Source of the DNA: Rothia sp. P100
Lineage (GTDB): Bacteria; Actinomycetota; Actinomycetes; Actinomycetales; Micrococcaceae
Length of the DNA: 64,000 nucleotides
Reading direction: 5' to 3'
Assembly (NCBI RefSeq): GCF_023712425.1
Contig: NZ_JAMAYG010000004.1
Span: 124,001-188,000 of the forward strand
Shown: positions 58,722 through 61,157 of the stretch, in pieces
How the letters are laid out: each line of letters begins with the position of its first letter
Position numbering within the stretch: the first letter of the stretch is position 1
Program-made: the position numbers and the translations under genes
The notes under the pieces: model-generated
The model's database searches: none
The model's input: the letters and a program-made list of their open reading frames with translations, nothing else
Told to the model about the DNA's origin: nothing

Positions 58722-58722
<1 letters not shown>

Positions 58723-60134
58723 TGCCCAAGAACTTGACTGTTCATACCACTGACATTCCCGGGCTGCTGGTTATTGACATACCTCAGCACGGTGATAACC
58801 GCGGCTGGTTCAAGGAGAACTGGCAGCGTGAGAAGATGGTCGCCGCTGGCCTGCCTGACTTCGGGCCTGTGCAGAACAATATTTCCTTCAACGCCGCTGC
58901 CGGAACTACTCGCGGCATCCACGCTGAACCGTGGGATAAGTATATTTCTGTGGCGACAGGTCGCATTTTTGGCGCCTGGGTTGACTTGCGCGCTGGGGAT
59001 TCCTTCGGTGCTACCGTAACCGTTGAACTGGGCCCAGATACCGCGGTCTTCGTGCCCCGAGGTGTAGGTAATTCATTTCAAACACTTGAGGACAACACGG
59101 CCTATACCTATCTGGTCAATGATCACTGGTCAGCAGATGCTGTGGATGGCTATAAGTTTCTTAACCTAGCGGATGAAACGGTGGCGGTGCCCTGGCCTAT
59201 CTCTCTGGAGAAGGCAGAACTGTCGGACAAGGACAGGGCTCACCCACGTCTTGCAGATGTAGACCCCCTGCAACCAGCACCTCTGCTGGTGGTCGGCGCT
59301 AACGGTCAGCTGGGGAGTGAACTCGTGCAACAGCTTGAAGCTACGGGTACTCCCTATATCGCGGCAACCCGAGAACAGATTGATGTGGCAGAACCAAGCA
59401 CCTGGGCTGACGCCTACCGTTGGCGTTCGCTGCGGGGCATTATTAACGCGGCAGCTTATACTGCGGTGGATACCGCTGAGACTGAGCAGGGCAGAGCGCA
59501 GGCATGGGCCGCTAATGCTACCGGTGTGGCTGCTTTGGCTCGAATTGCTGATGGGGCTGGCATCCCACTGGTGCATGTTTCTACCGACTATGTTTTTGAC
59601 GGCAGTCTGCCCCTGGGGCAGGAGTACACGGTAGATGCGCCGGTAGCGCCTCTGGGCGTTTACGGTCAGTCTAAGGCCGCCGGGGAAATGGCGGCTCGCA
59701 GCGTAGCTCGGCACTATATTGTCCGCACCTCCTGGGTTATGGGAAACGGCAAGAATTTTGTTGAAATCATGAAGTCTCTGGCTGAGCGCGGCGTAGAACC
59801 CACGGTGGTAGCTGATCAACATGGGCGCCCCACCTTCACCGAAGATCTGGCCGGCGCTATTTTGCACCTAGTCGAAGCAGGTTGCGAGTACGGCACCTAC
59901 CATGTGTCCAACACAGGCGACGTCATCACCTGGGCTGATCTCGCAAAAACAGTTTTTGAGGCAACTGGCCACAGCCCAGATCGGGTGACCCCGGTGACAA
60001 CCGAGCAGTACTTTGCCAAAGCTGAAATCTTTGCCCCCCGACCCACAAATTCCGCCATGGATTTATCAAAAATTATTGAAACAGGCTTCAAACCGCGTTC
60101 CTACCAGGATGCTTTATCCGCCTATCTCGCATAG
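58722..60134 (+). CDS. RmlC-RmlD fusion: dTDP-4-keto-rhamnose 3,5-epimerase and reductase
   Basis: Residues 1-180 are a cupin RmlC domain: QHGDNRGWFKENWQ, then TTRGIHAEPWDKYISV with the catalytic His, and PRGVGNSFQTLED. Residues 190-470 are RmlD: LLVVGANGQLGSELVQQL for NADP, AAAYTAVDTAETE, VSTDYVFDGS, the catalytic YGQSKAAGE, and RTSWVMGNGKNFVE. The fusion completes dTDP-L-rhamnose from the RfbB product in one polypeptide. Similar fusions occur in Arthrobacter-like and other actinobacteria. Coupled to rfbB by a one-base overlap. Confidence 0.93.
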
Positions 60135-60194
60135 ATTTGGTAGTCATGCTCTAAGTAGGACGTCGTGTGGCAGCTCACCAGCTTGTCGGCGGCG

Positions 60195-60392
60195 TCCTGC
60201 CTTGTTTAAGCCTGAAAAATCAGCAATACTGGAGGGGTTGTCTTCATCGGCAACAAGCCAAGGCAGTGGAATGCCGGTGGGAAACCCCGGTAGGTCCGTA
60301 ACTGACGGTGGCTGGTTAGAAAACGATTTCTAGCGCCAGTTCACTTATATAACTTGGCGCATCAACCTCTAACCAGCGAAAGGAATGCACAC
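60195..60392 (+). promoter_or_regulatory. Structured rplY leader with cobalamin-riboswitch-like core
   Basis: The 258-base gap before rplY is full of pairing: CTGCCTTG (60197-60204) with CAAGGCAG (60259-60266); CCGG hairpin at 60274-60290; GCTGGTTAGA (60311-60320) with its exact complement at 60368-60377; and GCGCCA/TGGCGC (60333-60360) inside it. The run GGAATGCCGGTGGGAAACCC, continuing CGG...TCCGTAACTG to 60304, closely follows the conserved cobalamin-aptamer core (GGGAA, CCGGTG..AA..CCGG, CCCGCaACTG), with GGA/TCC pairing kept. The downstream B12 box is at best partial (GCCAG...AC at 60335-60345). The ribosome-binding site follows the last stem. Confidence 0.55.
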
Positions 60393-61004
60393 ATGTCAAG
60401 TGCAGAAAAAATTTCAGCTAACGTCCGTGATGACTTCGGTAAGGGTTACGCACGTCGTATCCGCATGGCAGGCGACATCCCCGCCGTCATCTACGGTCAC
60501 GGCGAAGACCCCAAGCACGTAGTTCTGCCCGGTCACCAGACCACCCTCGCAGCTCGTACCCCCAACGCTATCTTCGATTTGGATATCGAAGGAACCAGCG
60601 TTCTGGCTATGATCAAGGACATCCAGCGTCACCCCATCCGCCCTGAAATCCAGCACATGGACCTTCTGATTGTTAAGCGCGGCGAGCGCGTCGAAATCGA
60701 GGTTCCCCTGCACGTTGAGGGCGAGCCCGCAGTTGGTGCCGTAGCTAACCAGGAAGAAACCGTTCTTCTGGTTGAAGCGGATGCCATCAAGGCACCCGAG
60801 TCAATCACCGTTAACATCGAAGGTCGCGAAGTAGGCGCACACGTTCTGGCATCAGACGTTGAACTGCCCGCAGACGTAACTCTCGTTGCAGACGCTGAAC
60901 TGCTGATCGTCAACATCTCAGAGCCCGAAGAAATCGATCTTCCCGAAGCCGGTGAAGAAGGCGGAAACGCTCCTGAGGGCGACATCGTTGAGGCTGCCGA
61001 ATAA
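60393..61004 (+). CDS. rplY: 50S ribosomal protein L25/general stress protein Ctc
   Basis: The 203-residue protein has the 5S-rRNA-binding L25 domain (residues 1-90: RDDFGKGYARRIRMAGDIPA, IQRHPIRPEIQHMDLL) and the C-terminal TL5/Ctc domain (about 95-180: VEIEVPLHVEGEPAVG), then an acidic tail. It binds 5S rRNA in the ribosome and in this longer form is often stress-induced. ATG 60393 has AAAGGA nine bases upstream; the frame open from 60354 overlaps the leader structure. It precedes pth as in other actinobacteria. Confidence 0.95.
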   Translation: MSSAEKISANVRDDFGKGYARRIRMAGDIPAVIYGHGEDPKHVVLPGHQTTLAARTPNAIFDLDIEGTSVLAMIKDIQRHPIRPEIQHMDLLIVKRGERVEIEVPLHVEGEPAVGAVANQEETVLLVEADAIKAPESITVNIEGREVGAHVLASDVELPADVTLVADAELLIVNISEPEEIDLPEAGEEGGNAPEGDIVEAAE

Positions 61005-61095: not shown

Positions 61096-61141
61096 CAATG
61101 CCCGCGCACTTGCACCTAAAATGTACAGTGCGCGGGCATTG
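61096..61141. terminator. Fifteen-base-pair hairpin after rplY
   Basis: Fifteen bases at 61096-61110 pair perfectly with 61127-61141 around a 16-base loop. It is placed 92 bases after the rplY stop and 16 before pth. There is no T-run on either side, so it may be a factor-assisted terminator. Confidence 0.6.
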
Positions 61142-61157
61142 ATATGTTGAGAGAACC

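Follow-up and report, generated by a model that had tools for sequence, protein, structure and literature searches.

A conserved structured RNA upstream of rplY in Actinomycetes, a candidate leader for autogenous control of ribosomal protein bL25

Introduction

Ribosomal protein bL25 regulates its own mRNA in enterobacteria, through an operator different from the RNA described here (PMC10931766). The features of that leader, among them a weak GAGA Shine-Dalgarno sequence, occur only in species with a short one-domain bL25 (PMC10931766). The Escherichia coli L25 (rplY) leader is cited to Aseev et al. 2015 both in PMC10931766 and in the portion of PMC7247131 available to us, and is mentioned in the accessible text of PMC13245402. 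According to the same portion of PMC7247131 (Eckert et al. 2020), ribosomal protein leaders are usually narrow in distribution; an L25 leader is named there for Enterobacteria only, and the part of Table 1 that it covers holds no Actinobacteria entry for L25. Candidate leaders for L31 in Actinobacteria and for L17 in Actino- and Proteobacteria are included, each a structured leader of a single ribosomal protein gene with the ligand deduced from that gene (PMC7247131). In mycobacteria, repression through the S15 (rpsO) leader requires a pseudoknot upstream of the start site, as stated in the accessible part of PMC8470358, by which almost nothing is known of ribosomal protein regulation in actinomycetes.

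Here we describe a structured RNA that precedes rplY in Rothia and many other Actinomycetes. As far as the accessible descriptions go, it shares with the E. coli leader the same gene, a conserved hairpin of irregular shape ahead of the ribosome-binding site and autogenous repression, the last being presumed in actinomycetes. It is set apart from the enterobacterial leader, as described, by a long bL25 (203 amino acids) and an AAAGGA Shine-Dalgarno sequence in place of the short protein and GAGA. The L31 and L17 candidates are comparable in kind and differ in gene (PMC7247131, in the portion available). The S15 leader is likewise an actinobacterial ribosomal protein leader with a pseudoknot, but its gene, protein and sequence are others, and the pseudoknot in the L25 leader is a sequence-based proposal (PMC8470358, accessible part). 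No actinobacterial L25 leader was found in the literature searched, in which subscription journals are thinly covered, and a prior description is possible.

Results

The window, meaning the whole 64,000-nucleotide stretch of DNA that was analysed, belongs to a genome close to Rothia endophytica, whose L25 is 95% identical to that of the window; the genus Rothia belongs to the class Actinomycetes. The gene rplY (60393-61004, with its ATG at 60393) encodes the two-domain form of bL25 (203 amino acids; NCBIfam NF004131, 244 bits, and TIGR00731, 144 bits, both above cut-off), and its Shine-Dalgarno sequence AAAGGA is read at 60379-60384. This gene and the leader features below all lie on the forward strand. 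The leader is flanked by a fused rmlC-rmlD gene and rplY, and pth is next after rplY. The fused gene (58722-60134) joins RmlC and RmlD of dTDP-rhamnose synthesis in one protein of 470 amino acids. Between rplY and pth, at about 61097-61143, lies a strong hairpin (AATGCCCGCGCACT/AGTGCGCGGGCATT) that is perhaps a terminator or attenuator.

A probable rplY promoter is read as TTGTTT (60202-60207) and AATACT (60225-60230) with a 17-nt spacer, and transcription is estimated to start near 60237. The conserved core occupies 60257-60312 and consists of three helices separated by two internal loops. P1, the weakest helix, pairs GCC (60257-60259) with GGC (60310-60312); the loop AAGG (60260-60263)/ACGGU (60305-60309) divides it from P2, which pairs CAG (60264-60266) with CUG (60302-60304); and the loop U (60267)/GUAA (60298-60301) leads to P3, which pairs GGA (60268-60270) with UCC (60295-60297) below a variable apex. 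The core is supported by covariation and by matches of 69.4 bits to covariance model R1, whose seed contains the window sequence, and of 37.5 bits to model R2. An extra hairpin read between the estimated start and the core (GUUGUC/GGCAAC, 60237-60254) appears in other Rothia as GTTGCC/GGCAAC or as a different sequence, and stands outside the class-wide core. In L037 and L013 (Rothia nasimurium 136RC1) and L024, an insertion separates promoter and core, made up of a palindrome-like TTTTCCGAG..GCGAGGAA.CAAAAAT together with an incomplete repeat of the 5′ half of the core.

The Rothia leader folds more stably than nearly all of its shuffled versions: one of 200 shuffles was equally stable for 60225-60396 (z -2.65) and none of 200 for 60252-60400 (z -3.03). 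The unconstrained folds of both segments lack the core structure and pair its strands differently. In the minimum-energy fold, the 3′ strand of the core pairs with the rplY start codon; this pairing was not counted, because the start region shows no matching change in the Rothia leaders with altered P2 (L038-L041, L043).

With the leader as a DNA query, matches were obtained in 25 of 59 genomes, all of them Rothia. The L25 protein as query gave 32 loci, including Rothia, Kocuria, Rhodococcus, Saccharomonospora, Prauserella and Trueperella, and the rplY leaders of these loci, compared side by side, have a common core that is invisible to the DNA search. Its order is GGC, three bases, GG, a hairpin that varies in length and sequence, CC, GUNA, a triplet complementary to the earlier three bases, and ACG, with the consensus GGC(G/A)(A/G)-N-GG[hairpin]CC-GUNA-(U/C)(C/U)G-ACG. 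Among 89 leaders, the unpaired GG is present in all 89, the G and the A of GUNA in 89 and 87, and the A and C following P2 in 85 and 89, respectively.

Model R1, built from 20 leaders and used to gather more of them, matched 58 of 246 class genomes. Because half of its 30 best loci were without rplY (15, the window's own included, had the gene and 15 did not), R1 was too loose and was replaced for the census by R2, built from 89 leaders. R2 detected the core in 126 of the 246 genomes (127 matches, E<=0.01), which is not an independent rate because many of these genomes supplied the R2 seed; the position of the matches is independent. That position is nearly always the same: of the 127 matches, 124 are located directly 5′ of rplY and in its orientation, at 69-192 nt or similar, as judged from coordinates (70 genomes) and from an L25 search of the fetched loci. 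One match has no adjoining rplY (G111 contig 20, L268), and two fall at contig ends where the position is uncheckable (G065 and the second match of G133). The 120 genomes without an R2 match at E<=0.01 include some misses, the filters having been stricter; rplY itself was found in 245 of the 246 genomes by L25 family search.

When rplY leaders were searched directly with R1 at E<=0.05, 66 of 100 and 8 of 18 matched. Of 118 class rplY leaders, anchors and R1 together assigned the core to 85 and left 33 without it, in a sample that was not random (the 30 best-scoring rplY loci and 88 chosen among the matches listed, with different genera sought). All 149 leaders scored something in the anchor scan, and its cut-off of 33 was chosen after inspecting the scores. 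L164 (a false placement, 309 nt upstream) and L147 and L158 (below cut-off) were left out of the anchor set, as was L109, which had a wrong anchor and a true R1 match and was restored in the sequence-anchored covariation test described below. In a wider sample of the phylum, R2 matched 19 of 198 genomes, 14 of them again Actinomycetes; the 3-kb loci of all five remaining matches lack rplY, and these are taken as chance because none adjoins the gene. These observations identify the RNA before rplY as a conserved structured RNA that occurs in roughly half of the class genomes searched and is associated almost exclusively with rplY.

Several leaders show further peculiarities. At ten loci with the core (L236, L243, L245, L248, L250, L251, L254, L263, L266 and L267), bL25 scores low against TIGR00731 and has 140-201 residues with alanine-rich tails; the leader therefore accompanies diverged forms of the protein too. 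The rplY leaders of family f33 (L166, L171, L174, L188 and L202) lack the core; near the ribosome-binding site they have CCCCG..CGGGG hairpins with TGATCC after them, an arrangement reminiscent of type I-E CRISPR repeats.

The helices of the core covary. When 89 leaders are aligned by fitting to the model, pairing holds in 97.8% of cells and 56 double changes occur versus 13.2 in shuffles, while slid structures reach at most 50.4% pairing; an earlier alignment of 66 leaders gave the same picture. A sequence-anchored placement of 110 distinct leaders, made without model fitting, tests P2 and P3 only. In this placement P2 pairs in all 110 leaders, in the versions CAG/CUG, CGG/CCG and CGA/UCG; its second pair is GC in 98, AU in 11 and GU in 1, and its third AU in 92, GC in 17 and GU in 1. 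Similarly, the third pair of P3 forms in 102 of 110 leaders versus a maximum of 78 in 1000 permutations; the deeper pairs form in 70, 75, 50 and 55, a drop that arises because the length of the stem varies. Support for the three pairs of P1 comes from the fitted alignments, not from the anchored placement; as P1 was part of what the alignment was fitted to, this support is in part circular. An earlier note on this DNA had suggested aligning the rplY leaders of related species; so aligned, they share a core whose helices P2 and P3 covary, that is, the conserved and covarying structure in the 5′ untranslated region of a ribosomal protein gene that marks a ribosomal protein leader.

The core also keeps its place relative to the promoter. 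A TAnnnT -10 box stands 10-15 nt upstream of the core's GG in all 84 class leaders with the core that were counted, versus 0 of 84, 3 of 84 and 1 of 81 in control windows 60, 120 and 180 nt upstream. Rothia leaders, in which the spacer is longer, lie outside this count. From this fixed distance, the rplY mRNA of class leaders probably begins at or beside the core. In the same number of class leaders, CUCC-like words were seen 6-26 nt after the core in 35 of 84, versus a shuffled mean of 23.9 (maximum 33), which hints weakly at an anti-Shine-Dalgarno element there.

In Rothia and Kocuria, the core is followed by a second domain, P4 enclosing P5. The earlier note had described a perfect 10-base inverted repeat around another hairpin, ending at the ribosome-binding site, and all three details hold: GCTGGTTAGA (60311-60320) is repeated inverted as TCTAACCAGC (60368-60377), stopping directly 5′ of AAAGGA, and between them 60333-60341 can pair with 60351-60360 around one bulge. 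The outer repeat is P4 (GCUGGUUAGA/UCUAACCAGC, spanning 60311-60377), whose longest helix is 10 bp versus 4.5 in shuffles; the inner one is P5 (GCGCCAGUU/AACUUGGCGC, with one bulged U), found in both leader folds and in the Rothia and Kocuria leaders. Across 25 leaders of these two genera, many of them close relatives, P4 averages 6.8 bp versus 4.6 in shuffles and is individually significant in 12 (p<=0.035). It has compensating variants (ACUGGA/UCCAGU, AAGUUGGA/UCCAACUU and CGGAAC/GUUCCG); in a few leaders (L038, L042 and L044), the longest helix differs from the expected P4.

The downstream domain may also offer the core's 5′ strand a second partner. CUUGGC (60353-60358) is complementary to GCCAAG (60257-60262), a possible alternative pairing that competes with P1 and P5. 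Corresponding pairs in other lineages are CACGGC:GCCGUG, GCCUCG:CGAGGC and GUUCCG:CGGAAC. The mean duplex energy of downstream sequences is -10.75 with their own 5′ strand versus -8.73 with swapped strands (sd 0.15; 0 of 200 permutations), and -9.05 when the downstream sequence is shuffled. By type of 5′ strand, the own strand is best for CCAAG, CCTCG and TTCCG and second best for TCACG, and the pairing fails in four of eight types (CTTCG, GCCCG, TCTCG and GCTCG). Of 114 leaders, 61 contain a perfect 6-bp partner, which in a few cases lies within the coding region. Furthermore, in three lineages or leader types unrelated to Rothia, the partner precedes a segment complementary to the strand that comes next after the core. 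The layout is equal and the letters differ: GCCAAG:CUUGGC with P4 in Rothia, GCCUCG:CGAGGC with CGGUGG:CCACCG, and GCCUCGGC:GCCGAGGC with GGCUGG:CCAGCC in further leaders. Partner and following segment together would form a pseudoknot, for which the evidence is suggestive and lineage-dependent rather than general.

Discussion

We interpret the RNA as an Actinomycetes ribosomal protein leader through which bL25 represses rplY, with a probability of about 0.68; its ligand, the sign and level of control, and the switch are inferred. The core hairpin (P1, P2, P3 and two internal loops, both conserved), situated close to the start of the mRNA, would be a protein-binding site, and the protein most likely bL25, the product of its own gene. 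When bL25 is in excess of its sites on 5S rRNA, it would bind the core and lower the expression of rplY, most likely at translation initiation. In Rothia, Kocuria and some other lineages, the signal would probably be relayed by competition for the 5′ strand, which could pair within the core as P1 or else with a segment farther downstream, in Rothia CUUGGC. The downstream pairing and P4 would together make up a pseudoknot directly ahead of the ribosome-binding site. That these leaders are two-state devices of this kind, in which the 5′ strand either closes the bL25-binding core or joins the pseudoknot, is a tentative idea.

Translation is the likelier level because no leader showed an obvious terminator on a reading that was not systematic. 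We favour bL25 as the ligand because rplY is the only gene preceded, as is established practice for ribosomal protein leaders (PMC7247131, in the portion available), and autogenous repression because bL25 is known to autoregulate in E. coli and in those of its relatives that have the short protein (PMC10931766).

An unlikely alternative is a genuine regulatory leader of rplY that responds to something other than free bL25, such as another ribosomal protein or an assembly factor, pairing with 5S rRNA or a small RNA, a metabolite or a stress signal. The site of bL25 on 5S rRNA is loop E, and no clear copy of it is visible in the core by eye in comparison with the 5S of the window's genome; strictly conserved internal loops would suit any specific ligand, and relatives of bL25 are also named general stress protein Ctc. 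On the other hand, near-exclusive placement before rplY (124 of 127 matches) is what is expected of an autoregulator.

It is improbable that the element is a constitutive, ligand-free structure at the 5′ terminus that shields the mRNA or helps ribosomes to load. Its position in class leaders, at or close to the start of the mRNA, and the stable stem just before the ribosome-binding site in Rothia and others, would fit that role, but a generic stabilizer needs neither the conserved unpaired GG, GUNA and AC nor confinement to one gene.

Hardly credible is the view that there is no functional RNA and that conservation reflects promoter DNA or close kinship: the core does directly follow the promoter and the Rothia leaders are closely related, yet P2 and P3 show compensatory changes across the class, P3 varies in length, slid structures lose pairing and the sequence around the core is not conserved.

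The idea that rplY is controlled here by a cobalamin (B12) riboswitch, whether typical or divergent, the first of two readings offered in the earlier note, is already close to refuted. The run on which it was built is present, with the pairs GGA/TCC (60268-60270 with 60295-60297) and CAGT/ACTG (60264-60267 with 60301-60304), and begins inside the core, because the core spans 60257-60312; GGAATGCCGGTGG...GGTCCGTAACTG presumably resembles the letters of the aptamer core. However, the look-alike letters (GGAATGCCGGTGG...ACCCCGG) fall mostly in the variable apical hairpin of P3, where other Rothia carry GGAATACACGAAACGTGTAGGTCC or GGAACACCTTAAGGTGGGTCC, so that they vary even within the genus. The whole window at the Rfam gathering thresholds gave a single match, a tRNA, and no cobalamin family; 59900-60600 at E<=10 gave only a chance snoRNA match (E 8.2). 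No cobalamin family was matched at gathering in 17 related loci or at E<=1 in 20 class leaders, and RF00174, which matched in 8 of 14 genomes as a control, has zero matches anywhere in the window's own genome. The gene downstream, rplY, has no link to B12, and pth comes next. The likeness to RF00174 is thus a superficial one of letters in the apical hairpin of some Rothia leaders, which differ from it in their conserved letters, gene and model matches, and the riboswitch reading was rejected on the absent matches. The Rfam scan that the earlier note had suggested therefore went against its cobalamin side. No Rfam 15 family matched the actinomycete leaders, be it in the window, in the 17 related loci (gathering thresholds) or in the 20 class leaders (E<=1). 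Its second reading, a novel ribosomal protein leader resembling the aptamer by chance, is backed by the conservation, the covariation and the near-exclusive association with rplY.

If autogenous control by bL25 is right, it adds a ribosomal protein leader that spans a whole bacterial class, and bL25 autoregulation would have arisen separately in actinomycetes with the two-domain protein. The core would then be a compact RNA with strictly conserved loops in which to probe how bL25 recognizes a target other than 5S rRNA. Should the two-state arrangement also be true, the leader would act as a switch that senses two-domain bL25 protein and differs from the operator of enterobacteria.
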